Part shown: positions 10,621 to 55,094 of the stretch, piece by piece | How positions within the stretch are numbered: position 1 is the stretch's first letter | Layout: each line of letters begins with the position of its first letter | Virus record (IMG/VR): IMGVR_UViG_3300032462_000002 | Location: 42,871 to 106,870 of that record | Source of the DNA: a virus | Length of the DNA: 64,000 nucleotides | Strand: one strand, 5' to 3' | Translations under genes and position numbers: made by a program | The notes under the pieces: model-generated | What the model was told of the DNA's origin: nothing | The model's input: the letters and a program-made list of their open reading frames with translations, nothing else | Databases searched by the model: none

Positions 10621-11571
10621 ATGCGAGTTGCATCTATCACTATGATCGGTCAGTTTCCCGATGGGATCAACATTCATGTAAGAAATTTGAAATGGGCATT
10701 GACGGAAGATGACCACATTTTCATCATTACTTTGCCATCTTTTATTGAATCTCTTGATCTAAAAAACGATAAGCAAGTCACCTACATTCCCTTCCATACA
10801 CAACTTAATTCGGAAAAAGGATTCATCAACTTTTGGAAATATTTTCCGAAAATAATCAAAGAGTACAAAATATACCCTGAGTGGTTTTTGTTCATGGAGG
10901 AAGACATTTGGTTTTTTGCCAAGCCACTACTCCAAAGCGATCCTAAAATTATCCGTGGATATTTACCTCGTGGCTCGTACAGAAACATCTTACTCGACGA
11001 CCAAATCATACACAATCGAGTGTGGGAAGGTGCGCAGGTAATCCACAGTGATATTGTGAAAAACGCCATCAATTTCGGCATCGACTTTTCTTTTGTGCGA
11101 AACACATTCTTGGTCAAGAACAGAAAAAAATACGAAGATGAATTTGGTGGCGAGATTACCATGTCCATGTATCAGAACCCTGATACATTTGACGAGTTTG
11201 GTCTATATTGCGCTTTGGTCGAAAAGACGAAAATGCAACATGAAGTTAAAGCTCTGCATGTTCGTGGGCCGGAAAGTCTGCACCGCATGTATCCCGATGC
11301 TTATTTGCACGCAACCAAACAACGCATAGATGAAATACAAAAGAAATTGCCATATATTGATGTTCTACTTGCTGTTGCTGTATATTACACAGTTGGATTG
11401 TGGAAGCACATTCATCATTTGGACTGGACCAAGGCTCAGATAGAAAGTAAGAGAGAAATACAGCGGCTGTTGTTGACTGGTAACGAATGGATTACATTCG
11501 AGGAATACACCAAATTAGATTCATTGCATGTCTTAATGAATGGCTTATCTCCGAGCAGGAAGAAGGTATAA
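10621..11571 (+). CDS. glycosyltransferase-like protein (GT-A type)
   Basis: A 316-residue protein with an N-terminal Rossmann-like half (MRVASITMIGQFPDGINIHVRN) and LFMEEDIWF at about residues 90-98, resembling the acidic DxD-type metal site of GT-A glycosyltransferases; VWEGAQVIHSD and HVRGPESLHRMYPDAY follow, the latter fitting an acceptor-side loop. The protein at 44001 has a similar FVEDDYLHLP segment. It probably contributes to the glycan pathway represented by at least four other transferases in the window. The acceptor cannot be told. An AAGAAG motif precedes the ATG. Confidence 0.6.
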   Translation: MRVASITMIGQFPDGINIHVRNLKWALTEDDHIFIITLPSFIESLDLKNDKQVTYIPFHTQLNSEKGFINFWKYFPKIIKEYKIYPEWFLFMEEDIWFFAKPLLQSDPKIIRGYLPRGSYRNILLDDQIIHNRVWEGAQVIHSDIVKNAINFGIDFSFVRNTFLVKNRKKYEDEFGGEITMSMYQNPDTFDEFGLYCALVEKTKMQHEVKALHVRGPESLHRMYPDAYLHATKQRIDEIQKKLPYIDVLLAVAVYYTVGLWKHIHHLDWTKAQIESKREIQRLLLTGNEWITFEEYTKLDSLHVLMNGLSPSRKKV

Positions 11572-11694
11572 TGCGATATACTCATTCTCCGGGCGATCTC
11601 GATCAGCAATCGTCGGTTTCTATGTGAGAAAGCCGGACTTCTATCGGTACGAGCAAGACTGATAAGCCAAGCTGGTTTCACCCGGAGAGTGAGT
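11567..11694 (+). ncRNA. structured RNA candidate closed by a 14-bp stem
   Basis: ACTCATTCTCCGGG (11580-11593) pairs with CCCGGAGAGTGAGT (11681-11694), 13 Watson-Crick pairs and one G-U, enclosing 87 nt that contain at least one further hairpin (CGGTTTCT...AGAAAGCCG). A perfect TATAAT at 11567-11572 ends 7 nt before the stem, so transcription would start right at the structure. No U-tract follows; the RNA is either processed or the 5' leader of the gene at 11724. I do not recognise a known riboswitch or ribozyme core. Confidence 0.5.
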
Positions 11695-11723
11695 TGTCTT
11701 TGGTCAAATTTATTGGATTCGAT

Positions 11724-12219: not shown

Positions 12220-12816
12220 TTATCCTACCTGTCGATACTTCACTTTTTCTTGGAATTCATTTGGATGAATTAAACCCAACAAACTGGGTTTATCAGTTGC
12301 AAATTGATCCCAACTGATGCTTCTGTTGAAATTATTGATTTGAGTTGCTTGGATGTCACATTCGATGACGCCGCAGCCCCAATCAATATCGAAGAACATC
12401 AAACTTATTTTCCAACTACGGTCGCATGGACAGGCGACGTGTGGAAGTCATTCGTAAAGTTCCGAAACTCCTGGAATCTTCCAGCGTATGTTGTTGAGAT
12501 AAGGATTGCAATCATGGACAACAATAGTGCCACCAATATTGATGCTCCGAATGGAATTCAAGATGTCTTTGTCTACTTGATCTGATTGATGCAATCCATC
12601 AATGAAAATCAAATCAAACTTTTGTGTATTGAAAGCAAAGAATTCATCTGAAGTGATTTGATATGTGGCCGCAGTATTATTCGGGTCTACACAAAATTTG
12701 TGTTCACATTGGATGTGCTGGTATGTGTCAAATGTACCAATACCTATTTCCAAGTAGCTTTTGTAAGATAGCTCTTTAATCAAGAACGAAATCAATTCGA
12801 GTCGAGTTGAAAACAT
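12220..12816 (-). pseudogene. class I SAM methyltransferase interrupted by a 109-bp inversion
   Basis: Minus-strand translation from the ATG at 12816 gives methyltransferase motifs: LEIGIGTFDTYQH (motif I), FDLIFIDGLHQSDQV and GGTIVVHDCNPYL (typical of the Methyltransf_24 type), then runs out of register. The expected continuation, EEHQTYFPTTVAWTGDVWK, is present on the opposite strand at 12391-12447, and the tail DIDWGCGVIECD reappears on the minus strand down to the TAA at 12220. Flipping 12389-12497 restores one uninterrupted ~198-residue protein. Such enzymes often sit beside glycosyltransferases and methylate sugars. As assembled it is inactive: translation stops after the wrong segment. 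Confidence 0.88.
12389..12497. other. inverted 109-bp segment inside the methyltransferase gene
   Basis: Re-inverting exactly 12389-12497 joins HDCNPYL to EEHQT and AYVVD to IDWGCG, both in frame. The segment is flanked by imperfect inverted repeats, CAATCAATATC (12380-12390) and GATAAGGATTG (12498-12508), matching at 9 of 11 positions; the breakpoints share the dinucleotide TC/GA. It could be an invertible switch, a replication template-switch event or an assembly artefact. Confidence 0.85.
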
Positions 12817-12818
12817 CC

Positions 12819-13547
12819 TTAAAATTTCACTTGAGCCAAACACGGCGGCATAATTTGTTTGAGCATTGACACTGGAATATACGCCATGAGTTTATCTTGC
12901 TGGCTTCTAGGATCAGGGCGAACTCGCAATGTTGCAGCACCCATCCGATAGTTACCTCGTTGATCGAATCCCTCATCTTCGGCCCCGGCTCGCATCTCTT
13001 CTATGAGCTTTTTGGCTTCAGCAACGCTTACCAACACGATTTTGCCGCCAACTCGACTTAGAACAGCATAGAACTCAGCTTTGCCAACCATGTCTCTACC
13101 AGGGACGCCACGGCGATAATCCTTCATGACTTCAAAGAGAATATCATCTCCAGTATCACGATATTTGATTTGAATGGGTTTTTCACCGCTGGGAGTGTCC
13201 CACCATCCGTCAACCTTGTCATATTTATCTTCTTGAGTGGATGGCTCTCTAAGTTTCATTCCACATTGAACCAAGCTATCAAATATCTGCTTTTCAATAC
13301 TTTTGCCATATTGAACTCTCTGGTCAATGTCCTGAAATCTATTGCCCATACGCATTTGAGGCGGTGAAGTACGATCAGCAGGGTTTGGAGCATGACCAAG
13401 AGATGGCTTAGGAATTTCTTCTTCAGGATTTGTCACAGGTATCACCGGCTTTTGTTGTTGCATACGACGAGGATCACGGCCAAAGGCTCCACCTACGGGG
13501 CCTCGCCAGCGAGCTTCATTAGTTGATAACCATTTTGAAAAGTTCAT
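12819..13547 (-). CDS. PD-(D/E)XK-like nuclease with capsid-targeting-like N-terminus
   Basis: A 242-residue protein opening MNFSKWLSTNEARW, nearly identical in pattern to MNFKHWLSLNEGGW at 14542. A proline-rich, basic linker (residues 14-70) leads to a domain with E85, KVDGWWDTPSGEKPIQIKYR (D113, Q126-x-K128) and LFEVMKDYR, the layout of a PD-(D/E)XK nuclease with Q in place of E. If the N-terminal tag is real, this would be a nuclease packaged with the genome, able to act on host DNA at infection or on packaging intermediates. A GGGAG and ATAAATA lie just before the ATG. Confidence 0.65.
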   Translation of the reverse strand: MNFSKWLSTNEARWRGPVGGAFGRDPRRMQQQKPVIPVTNPEEEIPKPSLGHAPNPADRTSPPQMRMGNRFQDIDQRVQYGKSIEKQIFDSLVQCGMKLREPSTQEDKYDKVDGWWDTPSGEKPIQIKYRDTGDDILFEVMKDYRRGVPGRDMVGKAEFYAVLSRVGGKIVLVSVAEAKKLIEEMRAGAEDEGFDQRGNYRMGAATLRVRPDPRSQQDKLMAYIPVSMLKQIMPPCLAQVKF

Positions 13548-15851: not shown

Positions 15852-16427
15852 TTACTCGTATTTTTCAATCAAGAAATTTGGCAACTTAGGAGCGATGATT
15901 GAAAGCAATTCAAACGCTCCTTTATTGGTAAACACGATTTCGTATCTGCCTCTACACTGATGCAGATCACAGGTGCAATCTAGCGAATTGAAATATTCAG
16001 CTATGATCTTTGTGCCTTCTTCGCCAAACTTGTGAGTCCGCAAATAGGCTTTTCTTTTACTTTTCCGACCGGCATCAACAAACCAAACCATCCAGGCTTC
16101 GTCTGTCAATATTTCCAGCATCTCACGAGTCACTGTCTTAGCGCCATCTTTGTAATACATTTCGTATGCTTCATTGAAGATTGGAAAAGCAACACTGTAA
16201 CACCTGTAAGTGTTTTTGTCTTTCTTGATGGTATTTTGGTCGATCTTGAAGAAATCCTTTAAGACCTCGATCTTATAAGACAACCACATATTGTCGTGGT
16301 CACGCATGGCGAGGTAACAATTCTTACCACGCTCAGGGTGAATGATAGAGGAGCCTCCAAGGATGGTCCCGTATAGCACTTGTCTCTGGCTGTCTTTTAA
16401 GTTTGGTCCGCACTGATAAGTCATCAT
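15852..16427 (-). CDS. LAGLIDADG homing endonuclease
   Basis: A 191-residue protein. I start at the ATG pair at 16424-16427, behind AAGGAG; an open frame reaching 16976 has no ribosome-binding site and is antisense to the virion gene at 16563. Two degenerate LAGLIDADG helices are present: LYGTILGGSS (residues ~18-27) and LTDEAWMVWFVDAG (~120-133), followed by KAYLRTHKFGEEGTKIIAEYF and RYEIVFTNKGAFELLSIIAP as in single-chain members. The usual catalytic Asp/Glu of helix 1 is Gly/Ser here while helix 2 keeps its Asp, so cleavage activity may be reduced. Free-standing, not in an intron. Would spread by cutting tagless relatives. Confidence 0.82.
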   Translation of the reverse strand: MMTYQCGPNLKDSQRQVLYGTILGGSSIIHPERGKNCYLAMRDHDNMWLSYKIEVLKDFFKIDQNTIKKDKNTYRCYSVAFPIFNEAYEMYYKDGAKTVTREMLEILTDEAWMVWFVDAGRKSKRKAYLRTHKFGEEGTKIIAEYFNSLDCTCDLHQCRGRYEIVFTNKGAFELLSIIAPKLPNFLIEKYE

Positions 16428-16562
16428 TGTCTCCTTGTTGCCATATATACGTTTCGCAACATTGTTCCCGAAGATATGTAGTAGAAATCGGAATAAAAAT
16501 ATGAGCAGCATAGCTATTGTGAACAAAAAGTTCACTCGCATTAAAAAAAGGAGATAAATACT

Positions 16563-16901
16563 ATGGGAGCAACAAGCGTAACAGGCGTTAGTGGTCCAGG
16601 AAGCGTAGCCGGTCTTCAGAAGGGTTCGGAGCATATGTCTCTTGGCGTAGCCAAGTTGATTGGTCCGAAGGTTTCTGCTGCTGGTAAGATTACTTTGACT
16701 GGCACAACTGGCGTTGTAGAATTTCCAGAATTGGTTGGTGTAGTTGGCGATTACGTCGTCATGTTGACTGCTAATAGCGTCACACATGTTTTCGTTTCGA
16801 CACCATTGGCCGCTATTGCAAGCACAGATCAGTGGGGATTCGTCGCAACTGGTGGTACTAATGCAGTAGTTAATTGGGCAGTCGTTAAAGTCGGCAACTA
16901 A
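16563..16901 (+). CDS. small beta-rich virion-type protein (SVTGVSGPG family), copy 2
   Basis: A 112-residue paralog of the protein at 8053: GATSVTGVSGPGS, then LIGPKVSAAGKITLTGTTGVVEFPEL and a beta-rich end VNWAVVKVGN. The KGSEHMSLG segment is unique to this copy. AAGGAG with an ATAAATA spacer precedes the ATG. As with the other copy, a head or tail decoration role is inferred from size, composition and context. Confidence 0.72.
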   Translation: MGATSVTGVSGPGSVAGLQKGSEHMSLGVAKLIGPKVSAAGKITLTGTTGVVEFPELVGVVGDYVVMLTANSVTHVFVSTPLAAIASTDQWGFVATGGTNAVVNWAVVKVGN

Positions 16902-17010
16902 TTGATGACAAAATGAAAGAATTGAATGAAGCAAAAAAGTGATGCCCGGCAGCATTGCTCTTTTGGAAAAAGGCAAAACTCATCCTTATTAGCCTTTCTA
17001 ATTAAGCTAA

Positions 17011-18594: not shown

Positions 18595-18750
18595 CAGGGA
18601 AGTCATTAGTATCACAGAACAAGGAGGTGCGGCTTGTTGTAGAACATGTTGATGGAAGCAAACATTGGCATATTGATGGTATCTTTCATCGACCTTTGGA
18701 AAAAGCCTGTTGTAGAATATGCAGATGCTAGGATGTTACTCAATGTTTAG
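18585..18750 (+). pseudogene. small W-x-x-DG-x-x-HR repeat gene, frameshifted at an A5 run
   Basis: The frame starts inside the previous stop and reads MDLTGKSLVSQNKEV, then DGSKHWHIDGIFHRPLEK, a unit typical of phage and bacterial proteins with tandem W-x-x-x-G-x-x-H-R repeats. After HRPLEK the frame drifts into a cysteine-rich end and TAG at 18729. Removing one A from AAAAA near 18701-18705 restores PVVEYADARMLLNV and a stop at 18748. Either a homopolymer error or a decayed gene; it also shares a stretch with lat's start region downstream. Confidence 0.5.
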
Positions 18751-19325
18751 ACCAGATCAAGTCCATGATGTCATGAAGCTGTACACCATCGGTGACGGCG
18801 AGCCTAATACTTGATGAAGTTCAAACCGGCGTAGGCTTGACCGGGACAACATGGGCATACGAACATCATGCCGGGCTGCGGCCCGATATGATAGCGTTCG
18901 GGAAGAAAACGCAGGTCTGTGGCTTCGCTTCTACCACCCGTATTGATGAAGTGCCTGATAATGTATTCAAACAATCCAGTCGTATCAATTCGACCTGGGG
19001 TGGAAACATTATTGACATGATTAGATTCACGCACATTGCAGAGATCATGAAAGAAGATGGAATCTTAAATCAAGTTGCCATAGTTGGCGACTACTTCTTA
19101 AAGCAGCTTCACACGATTCCACGCATCACTAATGTTCGTGGCAAAGGATTGATGCTGGCTTTTGATTTAGAGACGCCTGACGCACGCAACAAGGTCTTAG
19201 ATAACCTACTAAAAAGAATGACCGTCCTGCCTTGTGGAGAACGGTCAATTCGATTAAGACCACATTTGATATTCTCAATGGCCGACGTAGACGAGGCCAT
19301 CGACATCATTAAACACGCCGTTTAA
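18743..19325 (+). pseudogene. lat: L-lysine 6-transaminase (lat) with large internal deletion
   Basis: The first 20 codons (MFRPDQVHDVMKLYTIGDGEP) match the N-terminus of L-lysine epsilon-aminotransferase, then the frame jumps out of register into the C-terminal half starting LILDEVQTGVGLTG. The half retains FGKKTQVCGF with the PLP-binding lysine, RINSTWGGN and LLPCGERSIRLRP-type ending (here VLPCGERSIRLRP). About 200 residues of the PLP domain, including the region between, are missing at about 18760. An intact enzyme would convert lysine plus 2-oxoglutarate to allysine plus glutamate. It overlaps the minus-strand gene at 19309 by 17 bp. Confidence 0.85.
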
Positions 19326-50028: not shown

Positions 50029-50061
50029 CTTCCCCATGACGTAAATAACGTCATGGGGAAG
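50029..50061 (+). terminator. terminator hairpin containing the next start codon
   Basis: CTTCCCCATGACGT pairs perfectly with ACGTCATGGGGAAG around AAATA, then TTTT. The ATG at 50053 and the first codons of the zincin gene are in the 3' strand, so transcripts reading through have a buried start. Confidence 0.88.
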
Positions 50062-52677: not shown

Positions 52678-53565
52678 ATGAAAGTTGTAGTTTGTCCTTT
52701 GGTTAGTCGAGATGTCCCGAAAGCAATTAGGGCAGTCAACTCGATTCGCAACATGATGGCAACAACCGAAGTTCAGTTTTCGGTTGTTGCCATCATCAAT
52801 TCGTTAAACGCTGAATTCATTCAGGAATTCAAAACTTGGTGCGACCAAGAATCTGTTGAATACAAAATAACGCCGTCCAAAGGAACTCCCGCAGCAGGTA
52901 AAAATCAATGCCTGAAGTTTTTCCGGGAATCTCAATATGATGGAATGTGCATGGTTGATGGTGACGATCTGTATTATCCAAGTGCCGGACTCCAAATCGA
53001 GAGACACTTAAAGCATCACCCTGGCACTGATTTATTGATCGTCAAGCCATCCGATCAAATCAATAACTACAGCAACAATTCAGTCCAAATAAAAGAAAAA
53101 GTACACGCCTGTTGTTGGGGCGACAATATATTCCCATTGCCATACACTTATGGACCCGCAAAACATGAAATGTTCTCCAACAGAGCGGCTGCTCACAACT
53201 TAGGCGGGCATGTTTTTTACAGTCGCAAATTTGTCGAACTCCTTGAATACGATGAAGACCAACTATTGGGAGAAGACCTCTTGTTGGAGTTCAAAGCATT
53301 GAAGCTGCATCAGGAAGGGAAGTTGTGCTTCTGGCTGAGTTTTGCCAGCGACGTTCAGTTTCTTGATCGAACAGGCGAATCAAATATTCAAGCGATAAAA
53401 AACGAAACAGACGGAGAGATGTATTACAACCGGCTGGTTGAAAAAGTAACGTCGATCCTTGATACAAATCGAAGTTCGTTCAATGAGCTTCCTGTGGAAT
53501 TTCCCAAAATCATATTCGGTCATGCCGAAAAAATTGCGTGGATTGCCCAACAAGTCGTAGTCTAA
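52678..53565 (+). CDS. glycosyltransferase family 2-like protein
   Basis: A 295-residue protein one base after the nucleotidyltransferase stop (TAAAATG). MKVVVCPLVSRDVPKAIRAVNS begins a GT-A fold (shown in part); GTPAAGKNQCLKFF and MVDGDDLYYPSAGL carry the D-x-D-D metal site at ~98-101; LLGEDLLLEF fits the ED catalytic base. Pairing with the nucleotidyltransferase suggests that it uses that enzyme's product. Confidence 0.82.
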   Translation: MKVVVCPLVSRDVPKAIRAVNSIRNMMATTEVQFSVVAIINSLNAEFIQEFKTWCDQESVEYKITPSKGTPAAGKNQCLKFFRESQYDGMCMVDGDDLYYPSAGLQIERHLKHHPGTDLLIVKPSDQINNYSNNSVQIKEKVHACCWGDNIFPLPYTYGPAKHEMFSNRAAAHNLGGHVFYSRKFVELLEYDEDQLLGEDLLLEFKALKLHQEGKLCFWLSFASDVQFLDRTGESNIQAIKNETDGEMYYNRLVEKVTSILDTNRSSFNELPVEFPKIIFGHAEKIAWIAQQVVV

Positions 53566-53595: not shown

Positions 53596-53678
53596 ACTTC
53601 CGTCACAACGCCCCTAAATGAAGCAAGCCCCGATGCAAGGTGCATCGAGGCCAAGGTATTCTCCAGAAAGGACCGAAA

Positions 53679-55094
53679 ATGAATTGGCTCAACAACATTT
53701 GCTGGCTTTCCGATTCGTACAAAATCAGTCACTACAAGCAGTATCCGCCTGGGACAAAACGAATTTACTCGTATTTCGAGTCACGATCCGGGTCGGTTCA
53801 TCCTGCCACGACCTTTTTTGGCCTCCAATATTGGCTGAAGCAATATCTGGTTGGGCAAGTCGTAACCGCCGAAAAAATCGACAAAGCAGAACGGCTGTTT
53901 AACAAACACTTCGGCGGCAAGGTTTTTAATCGTGAGGGTTGGGAATACATCCTCAACGTCCACAATGGTCGCCTACCTGTCGAGATTAAAGCGGCCCCCG
54001 AAGGTACAGTGGTTGGAGAATCCAACGTGTTGATGACGGTCGAAAATACCGACGACAACGCATTTTGGTTGACCAACTATCTGGAAACTTTACTGGTCCA
54101 GGTTTGGTATCCATCGACAGTCGCCACGCAAAGCCGAGCGATGAAGAAAGTCATCCTCGAATATCTTGCAAAGACAGGCGATACGGACCTGATCCACTTC
54201 AAGTTACACGACTTCGGTTTCCGTGGGGTCACTTGCCCAGAACAAGCCGCAATCGGTGGTGCATCGCACCTTGTAAACTTCATGGGAACCGATACGATTC
54301 TAGGGCTTGTCTTATTGGACGAATTCTATCATGAACCATGTGCTGGCTTCTCGATTCCGGCTGCTGAACACAGCACAATCACGTCATGGGGACGTGAACA
54401 CGAAGTCGATGCTTGTCGCAACATGCTAGTTCAGTATCCAACCGGCCTCGTAGCAACAGTGAGCGATAGCTACGACATTTTCAACTGCTGTGCCAATATT
54501 TGGGGCGGCGTCCTCAAAGACGAAGTGTTGGCTCGTGACGGTGTTTTGGTTGTTCGCCCGGACTCTGGCGACCCTCCGACCGTTGTGGTGAAAGTGCTGG
54601 ATATTCTTGGCGAGAAATTCGGCATCACGATGAACAACAAGGGATATAAAGTCCTGCATCCCAAGGTTCGAGTTATTCAAGGAGACGGCATCGACTTCAA
54701 GATGCTCGACCTGATCCTCTCAGCAATGGAAAAAGCTGGTTGGTCGGCTGACAACATTGCCTTCGGTTCAGGTGGTGGACTGCTTCAAAAACTCAATCGA
54801 GACACCCAACGATTTGCCTTCAAGTGTTCTTCGGCAGTTGTTGGCGATGAAGTCAGAGACGTTTACAAGCAGCCCATCACGGACGGCTGCAAGAAGTCCA
54901 AAGCTGGACGATTGAAGTTGGTCTGGTCAGACCGTCTCGGCCTCCTGGCGGGCGCACACGGCAAGGTTTTACAAACTGTGCCTGAGTCTGATCCACGTCC
55001 CGATCAGTTGCAGTTTGTCTTCAGGAACGGCGAACTTCTGGTTGACCAGACATTCGAGCAAGTTCGAGAAGCGACTAAACATACGATTCTGTAA
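53679..55094 (+). CDS. nadV: nicotinamide phosphoribosyltransferase (NAMPT)
   Basis: A 471-residue NAMPT converting nicotinamide and PRPP to NMN. The ATG at 53679 follows AGAAAGGA. Key residues are present: D178 in KLHDFGFRG, H231 in AAEHSTITSWG, R293 and D295 in VVRPDSGDPP, and FGSGGGLLQKLNRDT near the end. In other large phages NAMPT, with an NMN adenylyltransferase, rebuilds NAD after NADase-type defences (NARP2 logic); no adenylyltransferase is in this window. A broken SLOG-like gene and a NUDIX gene, both plausible in nucleotide metabolism, follow. Confidence 0.96.
   Translation: MNWLNNICWLSDSYKISHYKQYPPGTKRIYSYFESRSGSVHPATTFFGLQYWLKQYLVGQVVTAEKIDKAERLFNKHFGGKVFNREGWEYILNVHNGRLPVEIKAAPEGTVVGESNVLMTVENTDDNAFWLTNYLETLLVQVWYPSTVATQSRAMKKVILEYLAKTGDTDLIHFKLHDFGFRGVTCPEQAAIGGASHLVNFMGTDTILGLVLLDEFYHEPCAGFSIPAAEHSTITSWGREHEVDACRNMLVQYPTGLVATVSDSYDIFNCCANIWGGVLKDEVLARDGVLVVRPDSGDPPTVVVKVLDILGEKFGITMNNKGYKVLHPKVRVIQGDGIDFKMLDLILSAMEKAGWSADNIAFGSGGGLLQKLNRDTQRFAFKCSSAVVGDEVRDVYKQPITDGCKKSKAGRLKLVWSDRLGLLAGAHGKVLQTVPESDPRPDQLQFVFRNGELLVDQTFEQVREATKHTIL

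Follow-up and report, generated by a model that had tools for sequence, protein, structure and literature searches.

A 105-109-bp in-place inversion splits a SAM methyltransferase gene in a T4-like phage contig and is probably a recent one-off microinversion

Microinversions are clean events that are explained by template switching or by microhomology-mediated break-induced replication (MMBIR) (PMC8755829, PMC8604942). The accompanying inverted repeats are often imperfect and sit at offsets of -5 to +4 nt relative to the inversion ends (PMC8755829). Their published sizes are 17-33 bp in primates (PMC8755829) and 2-5 bp for the spacer inversions that template switching produces in yeast genes (PMC8604942). 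The locus described here shares with these events the clean in-place reverse-complementing, an imperfect repeat a few nucleotides from both breakpoints and the lack of a requirement for a recombinase; it differs in its length of ∼105 bp, in its phage setting and in the truncation of a gene. Invertons, the phase-variable inversions of the Hin, Gin, Mpi and RecV type (PMC5903667, PMC11892184), offer a second comparison, since the locus likewise presents a short, invertible-looking segment with an ∼11-nt inverted repeat near its ends. Unlike invertons, however, it has no recombinase in the phage records searched, its repeats are out of register and unconserved in relatives, a single orientation is seen (in a single contig), and the block lies wholly inside coding sequence.

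The window, the whole stretch of 64,000 nucleotides analyzed here, corresponds to positions 42871-106870 of a metagenomic virus record of 106,870 bases (IMGVR_UViG_3300032462_000002, here G000). Genes for a T4-like portal protein and for a terminase identify the record as that of a tailed phage; its DNA showed no similarity to named phages. Comparison with relatives and an in-silico flip reveal an exact, length-preserving inversion at window positions 12389-12497, in a class I SAM methyltransferase gene that lies on the minus strand. The ancestral gene (12220-12843, minus strand, ∼206 codons), whose extent is given by the flip and by the intact homolog, is now split into three parts. A truncated ORF of 131 residues (12448-12843, minus strand) ends in 15 residues, NNIRWKIPGVSELYE, that come from the inverted block. 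The block itself (12389-12497, plus strand), recognized by the flip, BLASTN and a motif scan, encodes EEHQTYFPTTVAWTGDVWKSFVKFRNSWNLPAYVV on the wrong strand. The orphaned 3' part (12220-12388, minus strand), from IDWGCGVIECD to the stop, is still open and intact and is no longer read in frame. Upstream lies an intact neighbor of unassigned function (12819-13547, minus strand), whose 3' end overlaps the methyltransferase start and which is 90% identical, and in the same order, in the relative L002.

The first-pass annotation had described a 109-bp inversion that can be repaired exactly, with in-frame junctions at both ends and a tail, IDWGCGVIECD, resuming on the minus strand, and each of these points is borne out. 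Reverse-complementing 12389-12497 joins the 131-residue ORF and the 3' remnant into a single 207-residue frame that ends at 12220 and contains the listed peptides, while frame and codon count agree with L002 and with a second relative, L022, across both junctions, so that no sequence has been gained or lost. The ends are ambiguous by 2 nt per side: flipping 12389-12497, 12390-12496 or 12391-12495 gives an identical product because TC (12389-12390) and GA (12496-12497) are mutually complementary, and the size of the inversion is therefore 105-109 bp.

The intact form, which the annotation had suggested seeking in related phages, is present in both close relatives, which were found through the neighbor gene and an alignment query. 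L002, reached via the neighbor at 12819-13547, is part of a 223-kb record (G001) that aligns collinearly along the full 107 kb of the contig at ∼83% identity (BLASTN). Its enzyme (L002 6740-7360, 206 residues) is 79% identical to the flipped reading, with EEHQTYF...AYVV in place, and the gene in L022 is also intact and uninverted. When the window is compared with the relative by BLASTN, an opposite-strand match appears at 12391-12494 (104 bases, 79%, E 4e-18), exactly in the expected place. This is the only in-place inversion that BLASTN detects along the 107-kb collinear contig, palindromic hairpins apart. Such hairpins account for the other in-place opposite-strand matches (window 50029-50061 and 52753-52796, L007 9528-9554), which were rejected as further inversions; the two in the window are long, near-perfect palindromes that match the relative in both orientations, and one of them is an intergenic, terminator-like hairpin.

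Wider sampling gives the same picture. Of 87 phage and bacterial homologs, 86 span the block, each with it in the orientation of its N-terminal portion; the remaining homolog, matched only from residue 62 onward, also carries the block on the same strand, and a nearby opposite-strand piece occurs in none of the 87. A degenerate scan for WTGDVWKSF across 2.9 million viral contigs recovered three records, all uninverted, so that neither the motif scan nor the homolog set yielded the inverted form in any other record. The flipped sequence, used as a whole-protein query against the viral contigs, gave no match because its search patterns fell on variable stretches. By this comparison, the uninverted orientation of the relatives is the ancestral one.

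The assignment of the gene as a SAM methyltransferase, also made in the first-pass annotation, is supported by profile and by fold. The 131-residue ORF matches Methyltransf_24 (PF13578) at 36.8 bits (cut-off 26.3, E 7.7e-9), while NCBIfam and a sequence search of solved structures returned no match. The intact relative, modeled with AlphaFold (AF2; mean pLDDT 82, pTM 0.85), is predicted to adopt a Rossmann methyltransferase fold whose nearest solved neighbors are SAM O-methyltransferases of the caffeoyl-CoA type. The gene thus resembles Methyltransf_24 and the O-methyltransferase fold both in its match over the curated Pfam cut-off and in the model of its intact relative; it differs from the solved O-methyltransferases in sharing only ∼11-17% identity with them and in that the window copy is broken. 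Several homologs adjoin glycosyltransferases and other methyltransferases, and a role in glycan methylation is therefore plausible.

In the model, αE (132-142) and β6 (147-150) fall within the block and β7 (156-161) within the orphaned tail. The reading frame of the truncated ORF runs into the inverted block for 15 residues before its stop, so that the protein has none of these three elements and has also lost the invariant W128, G130 and GCG 155-157. Judged on the modeled fold, the flip removes the C-terminal third of the protein, and the truncated enzyme would very probably be inactive; the methyltransferase gene itself appears to be dispensable. That the inverted form instead provides a new and useful product, either the 131-residue truncated methyltransferase or a 93-residue plus-strand ORF across the block, is highly improbable. 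Both ORFs are open, but the truncated protein would lack two of the seven strands and a core helix of the modeled fold, the plus-strand ORF owes its existence solely to coding sequence having been placed on the wrong strand, and neither form is found in any homolog.

The ends of the block lie close to an imperfect inverted repeat, with a left arm, CAATCAATATC, at 12380-12390 (plus strand) and a right arm, CAATCCTTATC, at 12498-12508 (minus strand). The 9/11 repeats previously said to flank the block are indeed present, although they sit 2 nt off the breakpoint register: the repeat is centered at 12444 and the inversion at 12443, so that the repeat is not an in-register crossover site, and identity in register does not go beyond 2 nt, or 4 of 5. 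The arms do lie within the ∼5 nt of both breakpoints that characterizes microinversions. A repeat of this kind falls no more than 3 nt from the ends in 0.85% of random same-length intervals in the window, and a gapped version arises by chance in 1.2% in the window and, when intervals of any length inside the gene are considered, in 4.5%. A longer repeat with gaps (CAATC..TATC-.AA.AACAT) was discarded, as its significance is no better than that of the short one. The same positions match at 6/11 in L002 and L022, and no second copy of the site occurs elsewhere in the window. Homogenization of the arms, from 6/11 in the relatives to 9/11 here, was considered and not used because, at one changed site, the Asp of the window is commoner in distant homologs and the direction of change is ambiguous.

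These features bear directly on the proposal, raised in the first-pass annotation, of an invertible on/off switch for a glycan- or virion-modifying enzyme. As an intragenic inverton, the methyltransferase gene would be flipped reversibly by a site-specific recombinase encoded by the phage or its host. In its favor, the inversion is clean and exact, the 2-nt TC/GA ambiguity would suit the core of a serine recombinase, and the relatives of the enzyme adjoin glycosyltransferases, a frequent target of phase variation. Against this, the serine and tyrosine recombinase families (PF00239, PF00589, PF07508) are absent from the incomplete 107-kb contig G000 and from the 223-kb G001, the phage records to which this search for a DNA invertase applies; a host enzyme could still be involved. 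The repeat arms are neither in register nor conserved, the window contains the site just once, no homolog carries the block inverted, and the 107 kb hold no other in-place inversion. With each testable hallmark missing, a dedicated switch is improbable. Less probable again is the specific form in which a host recombinase, or recurrent hairpin-driven template switching, toggles an accessory glycan methyltransferase in a T4-like phage; reversibility would make this a phage-borne intragenic switch, and the evidence points the other way.

The substitution pattern dates the event. When the block is read in its original frame, 21 synonymous and 2 nonsynonymous changes separate it from L002, and 20 synonymous and 1 nonsynonymous separate it from L022. 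The orphaned tail contains no stop and no indel, and its dN/dS is 0.22-0.31, versus 0.13-0.18 in the part that is still translated. On this sequence pattern the block was under coding constraint until recently; through most of the divergence, block and tail thus evolved under coding selection, and the flip is therefore recent, or reversible, or not real. The first option agrees with a recent microinversion, the second would fit a gene that returns to the on state, and the third is what a functional gene misrepresented in the consensus would give.

In this last case the real phage gene would be intact, and the consensus would have captured an amplification or library chimera formed by two strand switches of a strand-displacing polymerase. 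Such an artifact is an unlikely but serious alternative, given that the record is a metagenomic virus contig and that the inverted form appears in no other record. A pure assembly-graph error is itself unlikely: exact inverted identity near the breakpoints reaches 8 nt at most, well under the usual k-mer overlaps; both junctions must therefore have been present in sequenced molecules. For a random chimera, moreover, both switches would have to fall at exactly complementary positions and the chimeric reads would have to exceed the correct ones in number, and the contig contains no other such event.

The reading that is probably correct, and the better supported of the two offered by the first-pass annotation, is a recent one-off microinversion by template switching or MMBIR through which a T4-like phage lineage lost the function of an accessory gene. 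In overall character the flip resembles an ordinary mutation of recent date, or an artifact of the sample, rather than a dedicated switch. Two close relatives and at least 80 homologs are uninverted, the inversion is clean and single over the 107-kb collinear alignment, the coding pattern retained in block and tail marks it as recent, and both ends have an arm of an imperfect repeat no more than 2 nt away, an arrangement expected by chance in ∼1% of cases in the window. Neither the contig nor the record of the relative yielded a recombinase. Three other accessory genes are truncated in the same lineage relative to L002/G001, so that one more inactivated accessory gene is unremarkable. On the other side, the repeat may be a chance one and is out of register with the breakpoints, the published yeast (2-5 bp) and primate (17-33 bp) cases are far shorter, and the consensus of a single contig does not by itself separate polymorphism, reversibility and artifact.

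For the microinversion, the following route can be proposed by analogy with the published cases. While the DNA was being replicated or a break repaired, the nascent strand would switch to the opposite strand near the lineage-specific 9/11 inverted repeat, which straddles the last third of the gene. Some 105 nt would then be copied in reverse, and a switch back through the 2-nt TC/GA microhomology would leave a clean inversion. The frame would thereby move off its own sequence, and the O-methyltransferase-like enzyme would end 15 residues on, without αE, β6 and β7. If real, the locus is a clean natural case in which a microinversion of ∼105 bp has disabled an accessory gene of a phage; the inverted-repeat microinversions of PMC8755829 and PMC8604942 are shorter. 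Automatic annotation would miss the true extent of the methyltransferase gene.

The three other truncated genes are of different kinds. A nucleoside hydrolase (PF01156), 305 residues long in the relative (L002 7852-8769), is reduced to a few short blocks at window ∼11571-11700. Of a class III aminotransferase (PF00202, 419 residues in the relative), a C-terminal ORF of 177 residues is left at window 18743-19325. A zinc carboxypeptidase (PF00246, 355 residues in the relative) has lost ∼200 codons at L007 9870-10352, on the same contig outside the window. Also outside the window, at L007 10955-14737, the T4-like portal protein (1260 residues) contains an intein splicing domain near its N-terminus, which is shared with the relative, and a second in-frame insertion of ∼410 residues with a LAGLIDADG domain, which is absent from it; the protein apparently carries two inteins. 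A separate LAGLIDADG homing endonuclease gene (PF03161) lies at window 15852-16976. The window further encodes a phage-borne glutamate/leucine-type dehydrogenase (PF00208, 22113-23378), a subtilase (PF00082, 32156-33112) and a nicotinamide phosphoribosyltransferase (53640-55094).
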